Both the position numbers and the translations under genes were made by a program. Positions 1,972 through 11,937 of a stretch of DNA of 11,937 nt are shown piece by piece. The stretch is from Candidatus Bipolaricaulis sp. (GTDB lineage Bacteria; Bipolaricaulota; Bipolaricaulia; Bipolaricaulales; Bipolaricaulaceae), in contig JAGUVP010000122.1 of assembly GCA_020062805.1 (NCBI GenBank), positions 1 to 11,937 of the forward strand, read 5' to 3'. Position 1 is the stretch's first letter, and each line of letters starts with the position of its first letter. The notes under the pieces were generated by a model. It made no database searches. It was given only the letters and a program-made list of their open reading frames with translations, and had not been told where the DNA came from.

Positions 1972-4729
1972 CCCTCTGCGGCTTCGGGATCGCCTGTTTC
2001 TCTTCCTGGCCGGAGTTTCTACCCGGTGGCCACTGGTCATCGTTGTTCTGTTCGTCGGTTTGACCTTCCTTGCCTACCTCTACATCCAGGATTTCCCGAT
2101 CCGCACCGCATACCTCGATCTGTTGCCCCAACAGGATCCGCTGGTAGTCAAGTTCCAATCTATCGAACAAGAGATGGCCAGCACGGAGATCATCGCTGTT
2201 CTGTTCACCCTCTCCTCCCCCCCTTCGGATCTAGCTGAGCGCGAAGAAATCCTGTTCATGGCCGCCGAACGGGTCATCCAGAAGCTTGACCTTGACGACA
2301 ACCCAGACCTCGCCGCCGCTTCCTACCGAGTAGGAAAGGGCACCGCAGTTCCACCAGAGCTGCTCATCTTCCGTACCCTCTCTTCAGAGGAATTGGAGAG
2401 CCTGCGAGCGATTGCCCGTGAGGTCCAGGCGGGCTTCCCCGGATTGCCAACGATCCGCCCATTGGAGGACATCGTCGCCTCTGTGAATACGATAACCCCT
2501 GAGCCCTCAGCGGTCGCAGCGACGCTTCGCGAACTCACCACCGCTGGACACGCCGTTCTGCACCTGCTGACAGCCACGGTTGGCCAACAACCCCTGCTCT
2601 CCAAGGCAGCGGGAATCTCCCGAACCGTCCTCGACCGGCCTGCACCTGAGGATGAGGGCGAACCGATCGTATCCCGGGATCGTACCCGGCTGATCCTTCA
2701 GATCTGGCCAACACGTCGTCCGTTTGACTCGCTCCCCTACAATCAATCCGTGACCCGCTTCGTACGAGAGGCGGTGAGCCAGGCGGATCTGGATGACCTC
2801 GGGGTGACTGTGGGTATCGGGGGAACCTACGTGATAACCGTCGAGACCGATGAGATCATCCGCCGCGACATGAACCTGGTAACGATCGTGTCCTCGACCG
2901 CGGTGTTCGTGTTGGTGCTCCTGGCGTTCGCGAGTCCGCTCTTGTGCCTGGCGGCAGTGGTACCAGTGCTTGTCTCTGCCCTGTTCACCATGGCGTGGGC
3001 CAAGATCGCAGTCGGAGGGTTCAACCTCCTCACCGTGTTTCTGCCCGCCCTCATCCTCGGTCTAGGAATCGACTACTCGATCCACATCCTGTCCCGGTAC
3101 GTCGAGGAGAGATCGAGAGGTGCACGGGTCAAGGAAGCACTGACCACGGCGGTCCGGACGAAGGGCAGCGCCTGCCTCACCGCAGCGATAACCACGGCTG
3201 TGGTGTTCAGTTGTCTTCTCCTCTCGCATTCCCGCGCCATGTGGGAGATGGGGGCCATCGCATCATTGGGAATCCTCATCTCGTTCTTGACGACGATTCT
3301 CCTGACCCCCGCCCTGGTTTCCCTAACCACGCGGGATCGCCGCCCCTCCTCCCGTAAGCGCCCCATCGCTTCCACAACTGCGCTGCGGCCCGTGTACCGA
3401 CGGTTCCTCCGTCTGCGGCCGGGAATCGTGGCGGTGGGGTTGATTCTCACCGGGGCGGTGTTGTACCAAGCAACCCGTGTGCAGTTTCGCTTTGTGTCGG
3501 ACGAGCTGGCCCCCGTCACGCCGGGCCAGACCCTCCTGACCACGGTCACGCGCGAGTTTGCGGGTGATGTGTGGCTAGGGGACTCATTCCGGTTCTTCGT
3601 GGATCATCCCGACGATATCGCCCCTCTGGAAGCGGAACTCGCTCGTCAGCCGTTGGTGCACTCCACCTCCTCGGTGCGTGGACTTCTTCCGAAAGAGCTG
3701 CTGGGGGGCAGGGACTCGATCCTCGATCTCCCTATAGCTGACGTGCAGCATGGCGTGGATAGCTTGGGCAACTGGCTCGAGGGATGGGACAAGACCTTGG
3801 GAGCACTTCGTACCCTGATCGTGGACCTCTCGAAGCGCGAACTCGTCGCTGTACTGACTGGACAGATCAAGCTTGCGGAGGCCCTGTCCGAAGGATCGAT
3901 CGATCTCGTCCACCTGCTGTGGAACCTGGAGGACGTAGATGTGATGGAAAATGCTGTCCGAATGGAGAAGATGTCGGCAGATCTCGCCGTGGTGAGGGAG
4001 TTCGTCGACAAGATCGCGGACCTCCCCCCTGAGGCTGACCTGCTCAATCAAATCCTCGCACTTCTCCCTGTGGAGATGCGGTCGCAGTATGCCACGAAAA
4101 GCGGGAGGTACGTCGTTGAGGCGCGGGTAACGCGCGCCATCTTGACGAAGACCAATCTGCGAGCATTCCTCGACTGGGCGGACGGACTCGGGGTGGAGCG
4201 GTTTGGCATTCCGGAGGTCACTGCCCAGCTCGAGGAGTACATGCGGCGCGACTTCCTGCTGTCGACAGTCCTCGCTATCGTGATCATCTTCCTTCTGGTG
4301 TGGCGCGATTTCCCGCAGGCCAGTGAGGCAGCGCTGGCGCTGGCCCCATTGGCGATGGGTTACGTATGGATGCTGGCCGGGATGAACCTTCTCGGAATCC
4401 AGTTCAACTTCACCAACATCGTCATCTCGCCTCTCCTGATCGGAATCGGCGTGGACAGCGCCGTACACCTCCTGCACCGGGTGGACGAAGAGCGGTCCGC
4501 AGGCGGGGATGCGGCGGTGCGAGGGGCGGCGGCGAGTATCGTACCGATTGCGGTCAGTTCATTGACCACGATGGCCACGTTTGGGGCCTTGCTCGCTGCC
4601 CACACCCCGGGCCTCCGACTGCTCGGCACATCGGCCCTCCTCGGGTTGGGATTCACGCTTCTGTGGAGCCTGACGTTCCTTCCCGCGGCAGCGGCGACAC
4701 TGGTTGAGAAAGCGAAACCGAGAGAATAA
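1922..4729 (+). CDS. RND-superfamily (MMPL/COG1033-type) membrane exporter
   Basis: This 935-residue protein is predicted to lie in the inner membrane with the RND layout of two six-helix halves and two large extracytoplasmic loops. TM1 is at about 36-56, followed by a loop to about 315. TM2-TM6 lie at about 318-337, 340-360, 367-390, 416-435 and 443-467, then TM7 at about 501-516. A second, helix-rich loop spans about 517-775, and TM8-TM12 lie at about 777-925. Each half has the diagnostic TM4-like motif: GLGIDYSIH (380-388) and GIGVDSAVH (841-849), with D384 and D845 as likely proton-relay acids. This matches predicted exporters of the MMPL/HpnN/sterol-sensing-like group, which move hydrophobic substrates using proton-motive force. 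The substrate cannot be inferred. ATG 1922 lies inside nusA and gives a 50-base overlap; the only other upstream-of-TM1 starts would be CTG codons such as 1976. No good Shine-Dalgarno is visible, so translation is probably coupled to nusA. Confidence 0.9.
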   Translation: MPSPSAHRPANEPKPASPLRLRDRLFLFLAGVSTRWPLVIVVLFVGLTFLAYLYIQDFPIRTAYLDLLPQQDPLVVKFQSIEQEMASTEIIAVLFTLSSPPSDLAEREEILFMAAERVIQKLDLDDNPDLAAASYRVGKGTAVPPELLIFRTLSSEELESLRAIAREVQAGFPGLPTIRPLEDIVASVNTITPEPSAVAATLRELTTAGHAVLHLLTATVGQQPLLSKAAGISRTVLDRPAPEDEGEPIVSRDRTRLILQIWPTRRPFDSLPYNQSVTRFVREAVSQADLDDLGVTVGIGGTYVITVETDEIIRRDMNLVTIVSSTAVFVLVLLAFASPLLCLAAVVPVLVSALFTMAWAKIAVGGFNLLTVFLPALILGLGIDYSIHILSRYVEERSRGARVKEALTTAVRTKGSACLTAAITTAVVFSCLLLSHSRAMWEMGAIASLGILISFLTTILLTPALVSLTTRDRRPSSRKRPIASTTALRPVYRRFLRLRPGIVAVGLILTGAVLYQATRVQFRFVSDELAPVTPGQTLLTTVTREFAGDVWLGDSFRFFVDHPDDIAPLEAELARQPLVHSTSSVRGLLPKELLGGRDSILDLPIADVQHGVDSLGNWLEGWDKTLGALRTLIVDLSKRELVAVLTGQIKLAEALSEGSIDLVHLLWNLEDVDVMENAVRMEKMSADLAVVREFVDKIADLPPEADLLNQILALLPVEMRSQYATKSGRYVVEARVTRAILTKTNLRAFLDWADGLGVERFGIPEVTAQLEEYMRRDFLLSTVLAIVIIFLLVWRDFPQASEAALALAPLAMGYVWMLAGMNLLGIQFNFTNIVISPLLIGIGVDSAVHLLHRVDEERSAGGDAAVRGAAASIVPIAVSSLTTMATFGALLAAHTPGLRLLGTSALLGLGFTLLWSLTFLPAAAATLVEKAKPRE

Positions 4730-4743
4730 AGTGATCCGAACAC

Positions 4744-4749
4744 GAGGAG
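4744..4749 (+). promoter_or_regulatory. Ribosome binding site of rny
   Basis: GAGGAG lies 8 bases before ATG 4758. It selects this ATG over the in-frame GTG 4731 and TTG 4704, which would add 9 or 18 basic residues and have weaker or no Shine-Dalgarno. Confidence 0.75.
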
Positions 4750-4757
4750 AACACCGA

Positions 4758-6377
4758 ATGTTCTGGATAGGCTGGATCGCCGTAGTTGGTTTGGTCGTGC
4801 CGGCGTGGGCTCAAGCTCAGGCAGGGACGCCGCCACCGACACCGGGGACACCGTTTCCGTGGTCTTCGGTTGCGCTTGGCCTGTTCGCCCTTGCCTTGGG
4901 AGCAGGACTAGGGCTCCTGCTGGCCCGCGCGCGCCGGCGCACCGTGAGCCAGCGGGCTGAGGCGATCCTCACCGAAGCCCGTGGGGAAGCAGAGCGAGTT
5001 CACCGCGAGCGGATCCTCCTCACCCAGCACGAGGTCGAGGAGTTGCGGGAGCGGGAAGAGGAACGCCTGCGAAAGAAGGAAGCTGAGTTCGTTCAGCTTG
5101 ACGAGCGCCTTCGCCAGCGGGAGGAGCGTCTCGGCAAAAAGGCTCAGCATTTGGAGGCGATTGAGGCTTCGATCCGCCAGGACGAGGCCGAGGTCGTTCA
5201 CCTCTTGGAGACAGGTCAGGAACTGCTCCGTGAGGAACAGACGCTCCTTGAGCGGCTGACCGGCCTCACGGAAGAAGAGGCCAAAGAATACCTCCTGAAA
5301 CTGGTGGAAGCCGACTCGGAGCGGTACTTCGCTCGCAAGATCAGCGAGGTGGAACGGCGCACAACCCAAGAGGCGGAGCGCCGCGCACGCCGAATCCTCG
5401 CCAACGCCGTCCAGCGTTACGCCCTTGACTACGCCGAGGAAGCCACGGTGACCACGGTCCCCCTCCCCAACGACGAGTACAAAGGGCGCATCATCGGACG
5501 CGACGGACGCAACATCCGCGCGTTCGAGGCGTTGACTGGGGTCGAGGTCTTGGTGGACGACACGCCCGAGGCGGTGGTCTTGTCCTCGTTTCACCCCGTG
5601 CGGAGGGAGATCGGCCGGGTTGCGTTGGAAAAGCTTCTCGAAGACGGCCGGATCCACCCCGCCCGGATCGAGGAGACGGTGCGCAAGGCGAAGGACCGCG
5701 TGGAAGAGGCGATCATCGAGGCAGGCGAGAAGGCGGCATTTGAGGTGGGGCTCGACCTGCCCAGCGACCTTATCCAGCTGTTGGGCCGGCTTCACTTCCG
5801 CACCAGTTACGGCCAGAATCAACTCCAGCACGCGCTTGAGGTCAGCTTCCTCGCGCGGCTGCTCGCTGACGAGATCGGGATCGACCCCAAGCCTGCCAAA
5901 CGGGCAGGGCTCCTTCACGATATCGGCAAAGCCGTGGACCACGATGTGGAAGGACCGCACGCGCTCATCGGGGCTGATCTCGCCCGCCGTGCCGGCGAGC
6001 CGTGGCCGATCGTGAACGCGATTGCCTCCCACCATGGGCAGGCTGATCCCTCCACTGTGACCGCGGTCCTGATCCAGGCTGCGGATACCCTGTCTGCAGC
6101 CCGACCCGGGGCGCGTCAAGAAACCTATGAACGATACTGCCAGCGGCTGCAAGAGCTGGAGAAGATCGCGGTGGCCTACCCCCTGGTGAAGGAGGCGTAC
6201 GCGATCCAAGCCGGACGTGAGGTGCGGGTGATCGTGCGGCCCGAGAAGACGACGGATGACATGGCAGCGAAGCTCGCGTATGATATTGCGCGCAGGATCG
6301 AAGAACAGGTCCAGTACCCAGGGGAGATCAAGGTGACCGTCGTCCGTCAAGCTCAATTCGTGGACACAGCCCGCTAA
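4758..6377 (+). CDS. rny: Ribonuclease Y (membrane-anchored endoribonuclease)
   Basis: RNase Y is a 5'-end-sensitive endoribonuclease that starts mRNA decay in bacteria lacking RNase E and is held at the inner face of the membrane. The 539-residue product is close to the usual 520. Residues 1-22 are hydrophobic and end in an AQAQA stretch. A transmembrane helix follows at about 36-56 with a basic stop (RARRR). Then come a long charged coiled coil (about 62-215), a KH domain (about 230-295, GRIIGRDGRNIRAFE with GRDG at 247-250) and an HD phosphodiesterase domain with H358, H387-D388 (LLHDIGKA), H425-H426 and D443. The C-terminal domain ends at 539. The double hydrophobic N-terminus is unusual, as most RNase Y proteins have one anchor. 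The next gene is spoVS, a neighbour RNase Y also has in Bacillus. Confidence 0.96.
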   Translation: MFWIGWIAVVGLVVPAWAQAQAGTPPPTPGTPFPWSSVALGLFALALGAGLGLLLARARRRTVSQRAEAILTEARGEAERVHRERILLTQHEVEELREREEERLRKKEAEFVQLDERLRQREERLGKKAQHLEAIEASIRQDEAEVVHLLETGQELLREEQTLLERLTGLTEEEAKEYLLKLVEADSERYFARKISEVERRTTQEAERRARRILANAVQRYALDYAEEATVTTVPLPNDEYKGRIIGRDGRNIRAFEALTGVEVLVDDTPEAVVLSSFHPVRREIGRVALEKLLEDGRIHPARIEETVRKAKDRVEEAIIEAGEKAAFEVGLDLPSDLIQLLGRLHFRTSYGQNQLQHALEVSFLARLLADEIGIDPKPAKRAGLLHDIGKAVDHDVEGPHALIGADLARRAGEPWPIVNAIASHHGQADPSTVTAVLIQAADTLSAARPGARQETYERYCQRLQELEKIAVAYPLVKEAYAIQAGREVRVIVRPEKTTDDMAAKLAYDIARRIEEQVQYPGEIKVTVVRQAQFVDTAR

Positions 6378-6385
6378 GGAGGGGG
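6376..6385 (+). promoter_or_regulatory. Strong ribosome binding site of spoVS
   Basis: AAGGAGGGGG overlaps the rny TAA stop and sits 3 bases before the GTG start at 6389. It decides that start and suggests strong translation of spoVS within the operon. Confidence 0.75.
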
Positions 6386-6388
6386 ACG

Positions 6389-6745
6389 GTGAATATCCTC
6401 AAAATCGCATCCACCTCGGAGGTTAGTTCGGCCGCGGGAGCGGTAGCGAACGCGTTTCGCGAGGAGGGAAGAGCTGAGTTGCAGGCCATCGGTCCCAAGG
6501 CGGTGAACCAGGCGGTGAAGTGCATCGCCATCGCCCGCGGTTACGTGGCCTCCAGCGGCGTGGACCTGTACTTCGTCCCCTCGTTCGTCGAGGTGAATGT
6601 GAGCGACGAAACAAGGACGGGAATTCGCTTCACGGTTCGATCGCGAACCCCGGTCCCGGTTCTGCGCCCGCGCCGCCGCGCAGACGCCCCCCGTCCACCT
6701 GTGGAGCCCCATGTCCCCACGACGGAGGATTGGCACGAAATTTGA
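6389..6745 (+). CDS. spoVS: SpoVS-family Alba-like protein
   Basis: SpoVS proteins are small, highly conserved, Alba-fold proteins. They were named from Bacillus, where loss blocks stage V of sporulation, but they are widespread in non-sporulating bacteria and thought to bind nucleic acid. Residues 1-86 are the whole family domain: MNILKIASTSEVSSAAGAVA at the N-terminus, then a conserved AIGPKAVNQAVKCIAIARGY block (33-52) and SSGVDLYFVPSFVEV (55-69). The product is 118 residues against a usual length near 86. The extra tail (about 87-118) is rich in proline and arginine, then acidic, and does not resemble the family. Its last part overlaps the next gene by 35 bases. The start is GTG with a strong Shine-Dalgarno. 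Its place beside rny suggests a role in RNA metabolism rather than sporulation here; no other sporulation gene is visible. Confidence 0.93.
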   Translation: MNILKIASTSEVSSAAGAVANAFREEGRAELQAIGPKAVNQAVKCIAIARGYVASSGVDLYFVPSFVEVNVSDETRTGIRFTVRSRTPVPVLRPRRRADAPRPPVEPHVPTTEDWHEI

Positions 6746-6974: not shown

Positions 6975-9454
6975 ACCGATTCTTCAAGCGTCATCAGAAG
7001 ACCATCATCTGGATGTTGGTGATCGGGTTCGTCGCCTCGATCGTCGTGGCGGGAGGATTGAGATTGCTGAGCTCGCCTCCACCCGGAAGTGCGGAGGAAG
7101 TTGTCCTCATCGTCGACGGACGAAAGACGACCCGCCAGGAGTTCGCCCAGGCCTACGGAAACCTTATCGAGTACTACAGACAGCTGTACGCGCTGTACGG
7201 GCTTGACTTCGAGGAACTCCTCCGCGGGACCGAAGGAGCCTATCGAGCGCTCCCCTACCAGGCCCAAGCGGCCGAAGAGATCGTTCGGTCGGTGATCCTC
7301 GACAAGGCAGCCCGTGAGCTGCGGGTGACGGTTGCCAAGACCGAGCTGGATAAGGCCGTGAACGATCGCTACCAGTCGATCCTCGTCCAGTACGGCCTCA
7401 CAGACCGGGACCTTGAGGAGTACCTGAAGTTCCAGGGATACACGCTCGATGCCTACAAGAAGGATCTAGCGCGCGAAGAGGAAGCCCGCCTGCGCGAGGA
7501 GCGGGTACGGCAGATGGCCGTCGGCCCGATCGAGCCGACCGAGGTCGACCTCGTCGCCTACTACGAAAACAACCGAAACCGGTACGAGAACGAACCGGAA
7601 AGGGTCCGCGTGGCGCACATCCTCGTCCGTGAGGCACGGCTCGCCGACGAGCTTCTCGGCAAGGTGAACGAACCCGGGGCGGACTTCGCCGCCCTTGCCC
7701 AGACTCACTCCCTCGACGAGACGACGAAGGACAGCGGCGGCGAGACGGGTTGGTTCGGTCTGTCTGATTCCCCGTTCTCGGAGCAGGTCACGGACGCGGT
7801 GTGGTTGAGCGAGGTCGGCCAGATCAAGCTCGTAGACGACGAGGACGGGTTCCACATCGTGAAACTCATCGAGCGCCGGGAAGCCGGAGTGCCGCCGCTC
7901 GCGGAGATCCGCGACACGGTGCGGGCAGACTATGTCCGCGACGAAGAGAGCAACCGCTGGAGCACGTGGTACGCCGCGCGCCGTGAGCAGACCGAGGTGA
8001 AAACTCCCGATCCCCTCCTCTCGGCAGCGATGGCCTACGGAACGGACAAGACCAAAGCCCTCGCCGAGCTGGAGGCTATCCGTGCCAGCGGATCAGCCAC
8101 CGATTCGTACGTGACCTACTACATTGGACGGCTGTACGAGGAGCTGCTGACGGCCGTAGTGGCCAGGCGGATCGAAGTCGAAGCCAACCCAGAGCTTTCA
8201 CCGGACGGCGAGGCCGAGATCTCCCGGCTGTACGCCGAAGAGGCGATGTACAAGGACAGGGCCGTTGCGGCCTACCTCGCGTTCATCGAAACGGGAATGG
8301 GGGATGATGCGTTCTTCCAGCGCTTGCTGGCCCTCGCCCCCCAGAGCGCGGAGGCACGGTACGCGCGTGCGGAAGCATACCGCCAAGCGGGGAACTGGGT
8401 AGCGGCTGAAGGGGAGTACCGGCAGGCGATCGAAGCCCGGCCGGGCTTCGTGGCCGCCTACATCGGTCAGGGCGATGTCCTGATGGCAATAGAGCTCCAC
8501 ACAGGAGCGGCGGAAGCGTACCGCAAGGCCCTCGACCTCCAGCCGGGGAACCCCGCGCTCAGCCTGAAACTCGCCGCGGCATACGTACGTGGCAACCAGC
8601 TGGCCCTTGCCGACCCGTTGCTCCAAGAGGTCCTCGCCCGCGAGCCGAACAACGCCACTGCACTGACTTTGCACGGTGATCTTCTCCTCGCCCAAGGAGA
8701 CACGGCGGGGGCGATCGCCCGCTACGACGCCGCGTACAGGCGCGGCCTATCTGCCGACGCCCTTCTCAAGCTGGCAGGGGCGTACCTGGTGGCCGACCAG
8801 GTTGCGGAAGCGAAGAAGAGGTACGAGGATGCCATCCGCGTGTTTCCGTACCGAGCCGAGGGGCACGTCGGTCTGGGCGACGTACATGCGAAGCTTGGCG
8901 ATCAAGACAAGGCGTTGTCCTCCTACCGTCAGGCTCTCCAGCGCGCGGTCCCTGTATCGCTCAAGGAATCCATTGCCCGCAAGATCGTGGCCCTGGACCC
9001 AACCGACATCCGGACCCGCTATCTCCTCGCCGGTTACTTCCGGGACCAGTACAAGTACGATGGGGCAATCGTCCAGTATGAGGCAATCCTGGAGCAGGTG
9101 CCCGGGAACCTCGATGCTCTGATCGGCCTCGGGGACTGCTACCTGGCCAAGGTCCAGTACGATCGGGCCCTCGACCACTATCGCCAGGCTCTCGACCAAA
9201 CGGTCGCCGCCGGGCAGAAGCTTTCCATCTACACTCAGATGGTGAAGGTGGAGGAGAGCCGGGTGGGAGTTGGAGCCCCGCTGGGACCGTTGGGACTCGA
9301 GTTCCTGTGGCAACGCGCCCAGCTCTATGCCGAACTCGTTCGGTACGAGGAAGGAGTGGCGGATCTAAAACGGATCCAGACAGCCGATCCCACGTTCCGC
9401 ACTGAGGAGGTGGCCGCGCTTCTCGAACGGCTCACCTTGACCCAACTGCGATGA
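6971..9454 (+). CDS. Membrane-anchored parvulin-type peptidyl-prolyl isomerase fused to a TPR array
   Basis: The predicted role is an envelope foldase or chaperone: cis-trans isomerisation of proline bonds in exported proteins, with TPR repeats as a docking surface. Of its 827 residues, 1-10 are basic and cytoplasmic and 11-33 form an uncleaved membrane anchor. Residues 43-200 are a SurA/PpiD-like N-terminal chaperone region (VVLIVDGRKTTRQEFAQAY onward). Residues 211-301 form the parvulin domain, with RVRVAHILVREA, GADFAALAQTHSLD, SGGETGWFG and GFHIVKLIERR in the usual order. A helical linker follows (about 345-455). About eight or nine tetratricopeptide repeats then run from about 459 to 808, with clear A-x-x-x-Y-x-x-A-L helix-B patterns (for example AAEAYRKALDLQPGN and ALDHYRQALDQ). 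PpiD and PrsA do not carry such an array, so the fusion is unusual. AGGGGG lies about 10 bases before the ATG. ATGA overlaps occur at both ends. Confidence 0.9.
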   Translation: MNRFFKRHQKTIIWMLVIGFVASIVVAGGLRLLSSPPPGSAEEVVLIVDGRKTTRQEFAQAYGNLIEYYRQLYALYGLDFEELLRGTEGAYRALPYQAQAAEEIVRSVILDKAARELRVTVAKTELDKAVNDRYQSILVQYGLTDRDLEEYLKFQGYTLDAYKKDLAREEEARLREERVRQMAVGPIEPTEVDLVAYYENNRNRYENEPERVRVAHILVREARLADELLGKVNEPGADFAALAQTHSLDETTKDSGGETGWFGLSDSPFSEQVTDAVWLSEVGQIKLVDDEDGFHIVKLIERREAGVPPLAEIRDTVRADYVRDEESNRWSTWYAARREQTEVKTPDPLLSAAMAYGTDKTKALAELEAIRASGSATDSYVTYYIGRLYEELLTAVVARRIEVEANPELSPDGEAEISRLYAEEAMYKDRAVAAYLAFIETGMGDDAFFQRLLALAPQSAEARYARAEAYRQAGNWVAAEGEYRQAIEARPGFVAAYIGQGDVLMAIELHTGAAEAYRKALDLQPGNPALSLKLAAAYVRGNQLALADPLLQEVLAREPNNATALTLHGDLLLAQGDTAGAIARYDAAYRRGLSADALLKLAGAYLVADQVAEAKKRYEDAIRVFPYRAEGHVGLGDVHAKLGDQDKALSSYRQALQRAVPVSLKESIARKIVALDPTDIRTRYLLAGYFRDQYKYDGAIVQYEAILEQVPGNLDALIGLGDCYLAKVQYDRALDHYRQALDQTVAAGQKLSIYTQMVKVEESRVGVGAPLGPLGLEFLWQRAQLYAELVRYEEGVADLKRIQTADPTFRTEEVAALLERLTLTQLR

Positions 9455-10086
9455 GCGACACCCACCCGCACCGCGATCCCGTCCTGGCACTGCGCGACCT
9501 CGTGGAGGTGATCGCTCGCCTGCGAGGCCCCACGGGGTGTCCGTGGGATCGCGCTCAGACTCACCGCACCCTCGTCCCGTACCTTCTCGAAGAAGCGTAC
9601 GAAGCGGCGGCGGCGGTGACCGATGGATCGACCGAGGAGATGAAGGACGAGCTGGGGGACGTCCTCCTCCAGGTGCTTCTCCACGCCCAGATCGAGGTCG
9701 AGGCAGGCCATTTCGGGATCGGTGAGGTGGCGGATTCCCTCCGCGCAAAGCTCGTACGGCGCCATCCCCATGTGTTCGGAGAGGAACAGGTCGACACAGC
9801 AGATGCAGTCCGACTGAAATGGGAAGAGATCAAGAAGCATGAGGGGCGACCCGTGCGCGAGCGCCATCTTCCCGCCCTCGTCGCGGCGGCGAAACTCGTG
9901 GAGGTCCAGGAAGCCGCAGGACAGCCTGTCCCAATCGGAGCCCGGCTCCGCAAACCCGAGGGTGCACTGCAACCGGAGAGAATCGTGGGGGAGATCCTCC
10001 TCGAAGGCGTCGCCCTGGCCCGGCAGCTCGGCTGCGACGCGGAGACCTCCCTCCACCGGTTCATCGCGGAGAAGAGCCGTGGGTGA
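9451..10086 (+). CDS. mazG: MazG-family nucleoside triphosphate pyrophosphohydrolase
   Basis: MazG hydrolyses (d)NTPs to NMP and pyrophosphate, cleaning non-canonical nucleotides and, in E. coli, lowering ppGpp during starvation. The 211-residue product has the N-terminal all-alpha NTP-PPase domain: LRGPTGCPWDRAQTH (24-38), the metal-binding EExxE (E47, E48, E51) and ExxD (E67, D70, within DELGD), then RRHPHVFGEE (103-112) and a WEEIK motif (124-128). E. coli MazG has about 263 residues with two such domains. Here the second half (about 140-211) is shortened and shows no clear second EExxE/ExxD set, so it is probably a structural remnant. The ATG overlaps the stop of the PPIase-TPR gene (ATGA). 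The end overlaps the next small gene by 8 bases. Confidence 0.93.
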   Translation: MSDTHPHRDPVLALRDLVEVIARLRGPTGCPWDRAQTHRTLVPYLLEEAYEAAAAVTDGSTEEMKDELGDVLLQVLLHAQIEVEAGHFGIGEVADSLRAKLVRRHPHVFGEEQVDTADAVRLKWEEIKKHEGRPVRERHLPALVAAAKLVEVQEAAGQPVPIGARLRKPEGALQPERIVGEILLEGVALARQLGCDAETSLHRFIAEKSRG

Positions 10087-10351
10087 CCGGTTCGCAGCCG
10101 TACGGTCTCTACCCCAGCCCACCGATGCGATCACGGCGTGGGTGGAGATGGAACCCGAGGCCGTCCACTTCCTGGACGCGGTGTTCTCGTCGGGGTCAGG
10201 ACTTGCCAACGTGCGACGCGAGTACCGCGACGAACCCCCGCGCCGAATGTTCAAGGTGTTCATCGCCCCGGGGTGCGCCGACGAGGTCCGGCGCACCCTC
10301 GCCCGAGCGGCCCGGTACGTGCACATCGGGGAGGTGCGGGTCGAGACGTGA
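10079..10351 (+). CDS. Small DUF4911-like protein
   Basis: The 90-residue product has a core (about 20-90) with a VEMEPEAVHFLDAVF segment, a GLANVRREYRD segment, then a short strand ending in FIAPGCADEV and a final helix. This order resembles DUF4911-type proteins as I remember them: a helix with an E-Y/S-G-L-A turn, a beta hairpin and a P-P/G-C-x-x-E-V turn. No biochemical role is known to me. The start is chosen at GTG 10079 because GGAG lies 7 bases upstream and the 8-base overlap with mazG fits the cluster. GTG 10142 and ATG 10148 are in-frame alternatives that keep the core. Its TGA overlaps the GTG of the next gene (GTGA at 10348-10351). Gap-filling position, coupling and codon pattern support a real gene; the family call is tentative. 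Confidence 0.7.
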   Translation: MGDRFAAVRSLPQPTDAITAWVEMEPEAVHFLDAVFSSGSGLANVRREYRDEPPRRMFKVFIAPGCADEVRRTLARAARYVHIGEVRVET

Positions 10352-10872
10352 GGTGGATTCGCCCCCACCACGTGGCTGGTTCGGTCCACGACGTGGACTA
10401 CGACAGCCTTGTCCAGCAGGGTGTTCGGGCGATCCTGTACGACCTCGAGAACACCCTCTGTCGGTGGCGGGTGTGGGAGATCGATCCCCCAACATGGGCG
10501 CTGCTGGATCGGCTTGCCCAGCAGCACTTGGGGCTCTCCGTGCTCACCAATGCCTTCGTTCCCCCGGATCACCTCCTGGCGCAGGGGCTGAGGGAAAGGG
10601 GGATCGTGTTGGTTAGCTCGGCACACAAGCCGCTGCAGCGAGGGTTCAGGGTTGCCCTCGATCGTCTGGGGGTTCACCCGCATCAGGCGACGATGGTGGG
10701 TGACCAGCTGCTCACCGACATCCTGGGCGGACGCCGGGCAGGGTTGATCACGGTGCTCGTCGACCCGCTGGGTTCAGAGGAATCCCTGCTCACCAAGCTC
10801 AACCGCCGGCTCGAACGACTCCTGGGGCGTCCGATTTCAGCTGGAACGGCACCGCAAACGGGACGAGTCTAG
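10348..10872 (+). CDS. yqeG: YqeG-family HAD phosphatase
   Basis: The 174-residue protein matches the length of Bacillus YqeG, a HAD-superfamily IIIA phosphatase related to the mitochondrial phosphatidylglycerophosphate phosphatase Gep4. HAD motifs occur in order: motif I DLENTL (nucleophile D32), motif II threonine T67 in VLTNAF, motif III lysine K94 in SSAHKPL, and motif IV VGDQLLTDI (D119, D124). The N-terminus (IRPHHVAGSVHDVDYDSL) matches the family's 'P-x-x-x-x-x-S-I-x-D-I-D' start, supporting GTG 10348 over the longer upstream frame, which belongs to the preceding gene. The second aspartate of the usual DxDxT motif is glutamate here (E34). The start overlaps the preceding stop (GTGA). 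Substrate is unproven; phosphatidylglycerophosphate is possible by homology to Gep4. Confidence 0.88.
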   Translation: MRWIRPHHVAGSVHDVDYDSLVQQGVRAILYDLENTLCRWRVWEIDPPTWALLDRLAQQHLGLSVLTNAFVPPDHLLAQGLRERGIVLVSSAHKPLQRGFRVALDRLGVHPHQATMVGDQLLTDILGGRRAGLITVLVDPLGSEESLLTKLNRRLERLLGRPISAGTAPQTGRV

Positions 10873-10877
10873 CTGCG

Positions 10878-11570
10878 ATGCTGGCTCATCCTCCTCTGCT
10901 TGCTCTACTCGCTCGGCTGAACTCAGAGGTTCCCGAAGACGCCCTTCGCGCCGCCCTGACCCATGACTCGTATGCAAACGAGCACGGAGGGGAGAGCAAC
11001 GAGCGCTTGGAATTCCTCGGCGACGCAGTCCTCGACCTGACAATTGCCGACCTGTTGTTCCGTCTCTTCCCCGATCGGGATGAGGGAGACCTGTCCAAGG
11101 TCCGGGCAGTGATCGTGTCCCGCCCCGTGCTGGCAGAAGTGGCGACAGAGTTGGGCCTGGGGCAACTGCTCTTCCTCGGCAAAGGCGCTGAGGACAGCGG
11201 AGGCCGCAGCCGGCCGTCCGTGCTTGCCTCTGCCTTCGAGGCCGTCATGGGGGCCGTGTTCCTCCACCATGGCTACAACGCAGCCCTTCGTCTGGTCGAC
11301 GAACTCCTGCGCACCCGGATTGCCGCCGACGCGGCGATGAGTTCCCCAGACTACAAATCCCTTCTCCAGGAACTGAGCCAGGCTCAGTTTGGAGGACTCC
11401 CCCAGTACGAGGTCGTCTCCTCGGAAGGTCCTGAGCACAAGAAGGTTTTCGCGGTACAGGTTTCCCTCCCCGCTGGCGAGGCCACCGGGCGGGGGAGGTC
11501 GAAGAAAGAGGCGGAGCAAGCGGCTGCAAAGCGCCTCTACATCAAGCTGACCGGACACTCTGGCAGTTGA
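10878..11570 (+). CDS. rnc: Ribonuclease III
   Basis: RNase III cleaves double-stranded RNA during rRNA maturation and mRNA turnover. The 230-residue product matches the usual bacterial length. The catalytic domain (about 5-148) has the signature NERLEFLGDAVLDL (41-54), including catalytic positions E45 and D49, and a later AFEAVMGA segment with E121. The dsRNA-binding domain (about 157-225) starts DYKSLLQELSQ and ends in the KKEAEQAAAKRL helix (209-220). The position three residues before E121, usually aspartate (D107 in Aquifex numbering), is serine (S118). ATG 10878 follows the yqeG stop by 5 bases with no real Shine-Dalgarno, so translation probably depends on termination-reinitiation. 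It is the last gene of the cluster; I see no hairpin-plus-T-run terminator after it. Confidence 0.95.
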   Translation: MLAHPPLLALLARLNSEVPEDALRAALTHDSYANEHGGESNERLEFLGDAVLDLTIADLLFRLFPDRDEGDLSKVRAVIVSRPVLAEVATELGLGQLLFLGKGAEDSGGRSRPSVLASAFEAVMGAVFLHHGYNAALRLVDELLRTRIAADAAMSSPDYKSLLQELSQAQFGGLPQYEVVSSEGPEHKKVFAVQVSLPAGEATGRGRSKKEAEQAAAKRLYIKLTGHSGS

Positions 11571-11595
11571 GGGGAGCGAAGGGGACCCGTATGCT
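11567..11595 (+). promoter_or_regulatory. Candidate promoter for the anion transporter gene
   Basis: TTGAGG (11567-11572, four of six -35 consensus matches) is separated by 17 bases from TATGCT (11590-11595, four of six -10 matches). The predicted start is near 11602, giving a leader of about 70 bases before GTG 11674. The -35 overlaps the rnc stop codon. The evidence is spacing plus moderate matches only. Confidence 0.4.
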
Positions 11596-11611
11596 ACCAC
11601 CCGCATCGAAC

Positions 11612-11677
11612 ATGCTGCCCATCGTCTCGTCTGAGTCGCTGTGTCTATCACGACCCCTTCCCAAGGAGGGGACGTGA
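11612..11677 (+). CDS. Putative leader peptide ORF ahead of the transporter
   Basis: An open frame from ATG 11612 encodes 21 residues (MLPIVSSESLC... ending PLPKEGT). Its TGA (11675-11677) overlaps the transporter GTG start as GTGA. An in-frame ATG at 11591 would lengthen it to 28 residues, but that ATG lies inside the candidate -10. No Shine-Dalgarno precedes either ATG. The reading frame runs through the hairpin at 11648-11677, so a translating ribosome would open that hairpin and deliver a terminating ribosome at the transporter start. It resembles no family I know and may be chance; its placement is the argument for it. Confidence 0.3.
   Translation: MLPIVSSESLCLSRPLPKEGT
11648..11677 (+). 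promoter_or_regulatory. Hairpin sequestering the Shine-Dalgarno and GTG start of the transporter gene
   Basis: TCACG (11648-11652) pairs with CGTGA (11673-11677). After an A-A mismatch (11653/11672), CCCC, one T and CC (11654-11661) pair with GGAGGGG (11665-11671), with one bulged T and a three-base CAA loop (11662-11664). This gives 12 base pairs, mostly G-C. The 3' arm contains the whole AGGAGGGG ribosome binding site and the GTG start. No T-run follows, so it is not an intrinsic terminator. It should block translation initiation unless opened by a ribosome, protein, ligand or heat. Confidence 0.6.
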
Positions 11678-11937
11678 CCCCTGCCCTTGCCTCGCTTGTC
11701 GTCCTAGGCGTAACGCTTCTCCTCTACGTCACAGAGTGGATTCCCCTCGGGGTCACCGCGGTCGGGGCATGCGTGGCGATGGCCCTCCTGGGGGTGGTGG
11801 AGTTCCCCGTGGCGTTCAGCGGGTTTGCCTCAGACGTGGTGTTCCTCGTAGGAGGGATGGTGGTGGTCGGGGCGGCGCTCGTGGAGAGCGGGGCGTCGCA
11901 GCTTCTCGGCGAAGCCCTCCTCAAGCGGGCCGGGGCG
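11674..11937 (+). CDS. SLC13/DASS-like anion transporter (partial, 3' end beyond the window)
   Basis: The first 88 codons of a hydrophobic protein are present. They show a helix at about 4-20, then TEWIPLGVTAVGACVAMALL (20-39), GVVEFPVAFSGFASDVVFLV (40-59) and a GGMVVVGAALVESGA run (60-74). A TEW-x-P motif between two first helices, a G-x-x-x-x-x-x-A-F-S-G-F loop and a G-x-x-V-x-x-x-A-L segment are typical of the N-terminal half of SLC13/DASS (CitT/ArsB-like) permeases, which move dicarboxylates, sulfate or similar anions with Na+ or by exchange. Substrate cannot be told from this fragment. GTG 11674 is chosen because AGGAGGGG ends 3-4 bases upstream; an in-frame GTG at 11641 would add 11 residues but has no Shine-Dalgarno. 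The start is buried in a hairpin. It lies 103 bases after rnc and may have its own promoter. Confidence 0.83.
   Translation, partial: MTPALASLVVLGVTLLLYVTEWIPLGVTAVGACVAMALLGVVEFPVAFSGFASDVVFLVGGMVVVGAALVESGASQLLGEALLKRAGA

Follow-up and report, generated by a model that had tools for sequence, protein, structure and literature searches.

What would open the start of a gene that is predicted to be folded shut within its own messenger RNA? The question is raised by the 3' end of the window, the term used here for the whole stretch of 11,937 nt from Candidatus Bipolaricaulis sp. (contig JAGUVP010000122.1) that we analysed. At that end, a strong predicted hairpin buries both the Shine–Dalgarno sequence (SD) and the GTG start codon of an anion transporter gene, an arrangement that the preliminary description of this DNA took for a translational OFF switch. 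The coordinates of the features discussed are collected in Table 1.

Table 1. Sequence features at and around the transporter start, in window coordinates
Feature	Position	Strand	Remarks
rnc (ribonuclease III), 5' neighbour of the transporter gene	10878..11570	+	PF14622, PF00636, PF00035
-35-like hexamer TTGAGG	11567..11572	+	TTGANN-N17-TANNCT in 8/8 rnc-linked leaders
-10-like hexamer TATGCT	11590..11595	+	17-nt spacer in 8/8 leaders
Predicted transcription start, approximate	11602..11602	+	inferred, ~7 nt past the -10 hexamer
Longer in-frame version of the small ORF, 28 codons	11591..11677	+	ATG in -10 box; SD-like AGGGGA at 11580-11585; would occur on read-through rnc transcripts only
Leader small ORF, 21 codons + TGA	11612..11677	+	only ATG between -10 and GTG; TGA (11675-11677) overlaps transporter GTG (GTGA)
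Alternative in-frame GTG, unlikely start	11641..11643	+	-33 start shared with G010 and G002 only
Hairpin burying SD and GTG	11648..11677	+	RNAfold; not the whole-leader minimum-energy fold in G010 and G002
Competing pairing of 11662-11671 (including the SD) with 11678-11682 and 11685-11689 (codons 2-6), GTG unpaired	11662..11689	+	predicted with 5' arm covered; like the minimum-energy pairing of G010 and G002
SD AGGAGG, 4-nt spacer to GTG	11664..11669	+	AGGGGG in G010 and G002
CitMHS/DASS-like anion transporter, GTG start and first 88 codons	11674..11937	+	cut by contig end (11937); PF03600 above cut-off

The transporter gene and its start codon

The transporter gene and rnc are separated by 103 nt and both lie at the 3' end of the window. 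The transporter orthologue of the related genome G010 matches VcINDY (E 1.4e-25, a sequence match to DASS structures), and its score of 162.5 bits lies below the cut-off of 198.6 for the DASS family model TIGR00785. Another contig of the same genome as the window carries a region (G000:C235:4092-5075) that matches orthologue residues 93-420 at 99%. Elsewhere in the window, at 4704-6745, rny (RNase Y) is directly followed by spoVS.

Our comparison of orthologues covered L001-L016 of 30 loci, those left out (L017-L030) being weak matches. Among further loci, L186 (in G061, an orthologue; 1 of 17 loci) and L104-L173 were left out, and L094-L103, of 80 further loci, fall mostly on the same contigs as loci already covered. 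At four orthologous loci (L013-L016), the stop codon of the preceding ORF begins 3-9 nt ahead of the transporter gene. This ORF is the C-terminus of a malic enzyme in L013, L015 and L016, the three loci tested, which belong to another genus of the family. Since these relatives have the transporter behind a malic enzyme-like ORF, the substrate may reasonably be guessed to be a dicarboxylate, for instance malate.

The position of the start codon decides whether the hairpin precedes the gene or lies within its coding region. The aligned N-termini of orthologues from 15 other loci begin M/V-T/S/D-P, matching a start at GTG 11674, and the strong SD belongs to this codon; the start favoured by the preliminary description can thus be retained. 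Initiation at the upstream GTG, which would place the hairpin inside the coding region, would be compatible with an in-frame extension that is open and with a GTG that is also kept in G010 and G002. However, the -33 start is absent from all 13 of the other orthologues, and in 9 of these the upstream frame runs into a stop without offering any ATG, GTG or TTG; we consider this reading very improbable.

The hairpin and its occurrence among relatives

RNAfold confirmed the hairpin over the SD and the GTG, with an energy of -18.6 kcal/mol and 12 pairs (5 + 7). Its 5' side consists of TCACG (11648-11652), an A.A mismatch (11653/11672) and CCCCTTC (11654-11660), followed by a CCAA loop (11661-11664) and the 3' side GGAGGGG-A-CGTGA (11665-11677). 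The 12 pairs and the A-A mismatch had been described correctly, whereas the proposed variant with a bulged T and a CAA loop is weaker (-16.9 versus -18.6 kcal/mol). The earlier view that the element is not a terminator also held, as no terminator-like site (GC stem plus T run) was found in 11450-11760, and an intrinsic terminator was rejected as a candidate.

A structure of this kind could be incidental: a G-rich SD, a GC-rich leader and C-rich codons 2-6 may fold by chance. Several measures of rarity bear on this reading. When the leader upstream of the SD was shuffled, 27 of 1000 sequences reached the hairpin energy and 29 of 1000 buried the SD and the start equally; the SD was at least as paired in 704 of 1000 shuffled leaders, so that its pairing is expected from composition. 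The stability of the 121-nt region around the hairpin is not unusual (z -0.67, 43 of 200 shuffles as good), and 42-nt tiles at -18.6 kcal/mol or lower are found at 121 of 3965 positions on the plus strand of the window and 140 of 3965 on the minus strand. We also compiled a background of 604 predicted starts, drawn from three genus genomes in the form of 61 stretches (20 contigs of the same genome plus the window, and 20 stretches each from G010 and G009), using a home-made hexamer gene finder whose calls include probable errors, for example the minus-strand ORF 9325-10683. The hairpin energy was reached by 24 of these starts, and a single one had both its SD and its start codon paired upstream at least as fully. 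On the shuffle and background counts, the hairpin is mildly unusual: it sits in the tail of the distribution, yet a few such starts are expected per genome.

A match to the transporter was found in 7 of 12 genus genomes and the leader DNA in three of the 12, including the genome of the window; the other two are G010 and G002. Between the window and these two relatives, 3 of 30 hairpin positions vary (11648, 11667 and 11672), as do 4 of 77 other leader positions. The change A11667G, present in both relatives, turns a U-A into a U-G pair and weakens the SD itself to AGGGGG; in G002 the outer pair is lost through the change at 11648, and the change at 11672 alters the A.A mismatch. The alignment contains no compensatory change in the stem. 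None of the other four genus members that have the gene has an alignable leader: beyond short motifs, no alignment with the window was obtained for G009, G001, G003, G011 or G020, the last of the rnc-linked leaders included, and this stem was not seen in them; the leader of G011 forms a different hairpin over its SD. The hairpin was accordingly rejected as a conserved element.

These observations weigh upon the proposal of a dedicated hairpin switch, in which an RNA thermometer, or a protein, small RNA or ligand, would open the stem. The buried SD and start are in keeping with it, as is the 5' arm, which carries no change in G010 and differs in G002 by its first base only; the isolated stems of these two relatives have energies of -17.8 and -19.7, respectively. 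In folds of the whole leader, however, the minimum-energy structure of both relatives is a different one: the SD is predicted to find most of its partners in codons 2-6, so that the upstream share of SD pairing is only 0.25 in G010 and 0.36 in G002, and the GTG is unpaired with a probability of 0.75 and 0.65, respectively. In the shorter stretch -50..+30 the SD is paired upstream with a probability of 0.57 in G010 and 0.05 in G002, and therefore the two folds are in close contest in G010.

The computed stability of the stem falls from -18.6 kcal/mol at 37 °C to -8.8 kcal/mol at 65 °C, which counts in favour of a switch, but melting on heating holds for any stem. In fourU thermometers (PMC10586365), a stem close to the start codon pairs the SD with four consecutive U; our hairpin likewise holds the SD in a stem near the start, and differs in that the SD pairs with CCCCUUC, with no four consecutive U facing it. 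An Rfam search of the whole window at gathering scores returned no match to described riboswitch or cis-regulator families. A csrA-like gene was found in none of the 12 genus genomes (the genome of the window is 73% complete, and the control search was positive in 3 of 14 named genomes), and the hairpin was rejected as a CsrA target. By title, one open literature collection yielded no switch of this kind, either upstream of DASS genes or within the Bipolaricaulota, which is no proof of absence. With the leader found in only three of the 12 genus genomes, the SD changed in two of them and compensatory pairs lacking, the OFF switch of the preliminary description is not supported as a dedicated hairpin, and we judge this explanation to be improbable. 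The hairpin appears instead to be one lineage's implementation of start locking and not a conserved sensor, as judged from the sequence comparison.

Occlusion of the start was then considered independently of any particular stem, as the predicted cost of opening positions -12..+5. This cost is 17.8 kcal/mol in the window, a value reached by 15 of the 604 background starts, 18.7 in G010 (10 of 604) and 19.8 in G002 (3 of 604). Similarly high costs were obtained for G009 (18.6; 11 of 604) and G011 (18.3; 13 of 604), through pairings other than those of the window, and ordinary ones for G001 (9.8), G003 (5.0) and G020 (10.9). The opening cost is thus in the top 2-3% of starts in three of six lineages and ordinary in three, with a Fisher p of ~0.011 over the six (against a background of strong-SD starts; p is nominal, as the lineages are related). 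The ordinary accessibility of half of the lineages agrees with an incidental origin of the structure. The differing pairings in the occluded half fit selection for a start that is locked unless read through, and not for one hairpin.

A promoter-like pattern and a small frame in the leader

The gene order rnc–transporter occurs at 8 of the 16 loci, representing six lineages, and all eight gaps contain the promoter-like pattern TTGANN-N17-TANNCT. A promoter scan was blank at this locus because TTGAGG/TATGCT has 8 matches and the scan threshold is 9 of 12. In 1.67 Mb of background sequence, on both strands, the pattern has 12 sites, of which two are the same promoter in G010 and G009; a called ORF lies downstream of 11 of the 12, within 320 nt in 10 cases. 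At loci L063, L075 and L080, promoter-like sites are situated 6-17 nt before the ATGs of long ORFs, so that genes with a short leader, or with none, may be frequent in the genus. A looser version of the pattern precedes called ATGs at 12 of 34 sites; altered patterns do so at 1 of 18, 2 of 20 and 0 of 6 sites. Because 5 of these 12 sites have the ATG <20 nt away, short leaders look usual in the genus genomes.

Downstream of this putative promoter, each of the eight rnc-linked leaders has an ATG at 15, 16 or 17 nt past the -10 hexamer, which in seven of them is the sole ATG before the transporter start. It opens a small frame of 21, 21, 21, 27, 30, 19, 19 and 24 codons in the eight leaders. In seven leaders, from five of the six lineages, the TGA of this frame overlaps the transporter start (its first base at +1, giving GTGA or ATGA), and the distances from ATG to start in these seven (62, 62, 62, 80, 89, 56 and 56) are all 2 modulo 3. 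The exception is G020, where the frame ends with TAA at -13, does not overlap the start, and has an ATG-to-start distance of 85. The promoter pattern, the place of the ATG, the frame and the stop overlap can be read directly from the sequences of the leaders compared; the NTGA overlap as such comes free if codon 2 of the transporter begins with A, as in the Thr (ACN) or Ser (AGC) codons found here. At the G011 locus (L007) the overlaps form a chain: rnc terminates on the ATGA that opens the small frame, which in turn terminates on the transporter's GTGA. No comparable ATG frame was seen in L009-L012, four orthologues for which rnc was not detected upstream.

The longer in-frame version of the small ORF was rejected, as its ATG lies inside the -10 box and, together with its SD, is kept only in G010 and G002 among the eight leaders. 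The conserved small ATG is not preceded by an SD. The small-frame peptides have nothing obvious in common beyond the window clade, and within that clade the frame has undergone two synonymous and four non-synonymous changes.

How often such a frame would arise by chance was estimated from 3000 shuffles per leader. With the ATG allowed at 10-22 nt past the -10 hexamer, the frequencies were 6.5% (G000, the genome of the window), 6.5% (G009), 1.2% (G001), 13.1% (G003), 3.4% (G011) and 1.7% (G020); with the wider range of 3-30 nt they were, in the same order, 11.1, 11.8, 2.7, 28.2, 7.6 and 3.6%. The promoter and ATG patterns were spotted by inspection and then tested, and the p-values for frame and promoter are nominal; given related lineages and a pattern seen first, we did not multiply the shuffle percentages into one probability. 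Across the genus, 27 of 209 sampled leaders (including that of G009 itself) contain some small ATG frame that stops close to the gene start, against 20.4 expected, and 8 of 100 shuffles reach 27. Enrichment of leader frames is not clear on this genome-wide scale, and a genome-wide use of such frames is not supported.

The lack of clear enrichment is compatible with the incidental reading, under which the small frame would be a by-product and the transporter modestly translated. However, chance folding leaves unexplained why the ATG keeps a fixed position in eight of eight leaders from six lineages and why the frame ends on the start in seven of eight. We consider an incidental origin unlikely, though it is the alternative to be taken most seriously.

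Translational coupling as a probable explanation

We propose that the DASS/CitMHS-like transporter is translationally coupled to a leader ORF whose peptide is of no consequence, an explanation that we regard as probable on the basis of the sequence comparison, the predicted folds and the analogy with known systems. A sigma-70-like promoter just behind rnc would produce a transporter mRNA that opens with an ATG ~9-11 nt from the predicted transcription start, followed by a frame of 19-30 codons that stops at the transporter start or, in a single lineage, shortly ahead of it. For the lineage of the window, the SD and GTG would be locked in the hairpin, or the SD would be paired with codons 2-6, and free 30S subunits would therefore initiate poorly. 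Ribosomes would be loaded at the short-leader ATG, melt the hairpin as they translate the small frame across it, terminate on the transporter start, and then restart or allow a new 30S subunit to bind; the sequence of the small peptide would be immaterial. We infer that the promoter is active, that the small frame is translated and that the transporter is coupled to it.

Folding calculations are in line with a role for reading through the region. Covering the 5' arm in silico frees the GTG and leaves the SD paired with codons 2-6 (probability unpaired 0.03); therefore, opening of the hairpin alone would not free the SD. A ribosome footprint on the stop codon clears both the SD and the GTG in silico, but it does so by construction of the calculation and is not a prediction. 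Against coupling stand the SD-less small ATG, the lack of peptide conservation, the G020 frame that ends 13 nt upstream, the ordinary accessibility of the start in G001, G003 and G020, and the absence of clear genome-wide enrichment of such frames. On balance, a conserved leader ORF with stop–start overlap appears to be a better account of the locus than a dedicated switch. A coupling device had been listed among the candidates of the preliminary description, which was right about the buried SD and start, and had missed the promoter and the small frame.

Coupling of this kind has precedents. In Escherichia coli, the small upstream frame uof is coupled to the start of fur, under the control of iron and RyhB. 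The arrangement proposed here resembles uof–fur in having a small upstream frame coupled to the start of a gene, and differs in that fur is a regulator gene under iron and RyhB control and the gene studied here encodes a transporter.

A closer parallel is offered by the E. coli iraD leader, for which PMC5574718 describes an SD-sequestering structure and a short ORF that ends in a stop–start overlap with the gene, with coupling demonstrated. Both loci have a short upstream frame with such an overlap; the SD is sequestered in iraD and predicted to be so in the window, and coupling is shown in iraD and proposed here. According to the same paper, a CsrA site overlaps the SD of the iraD leader ORF, whereas the small ATG before the transporter has no SD and lies ~9-11 nt from the predicted 5' end, in a genus in which we found no csrA-like gene. 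In Salmonella, the small ORF mgtQ favours the translation of mgtB, which encodes a Mg2+ transporter, again a small frame before a transporter gene with a structured start region; mgtQ is reported to act via acidic residues and alternative stem-loops (PMC8092293), unlike the peptide considered here, which is not conserved.

Beyond coupling as such, we tentatively suggest, as a possibility that we hold to be doubtful, that in this genus of the Bipolaricaulota a near-leaderless, SD-less and peptide-indifferent small ORF at a fixed distance from its promoter serves as a ribosome-loading ramp, bringing terminating ribosomes to the otherwise locked start of a DASS-like transporter, so that transporter output would read the capacity of the cell for short-leader initiation and not a ligand. 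If coupling through the leader frame is correct, it would constitute, for an uncultivated lineage, a case of translational coupling to a leader ORF whose position and reading frame are conserved and whose peptide is not, and an SD-less short leader would serve as a ribosome loading site. It would also mean that what looks like a hairpin switch in a single genome may be an exchangeable part of a different device, which is the conserved one.
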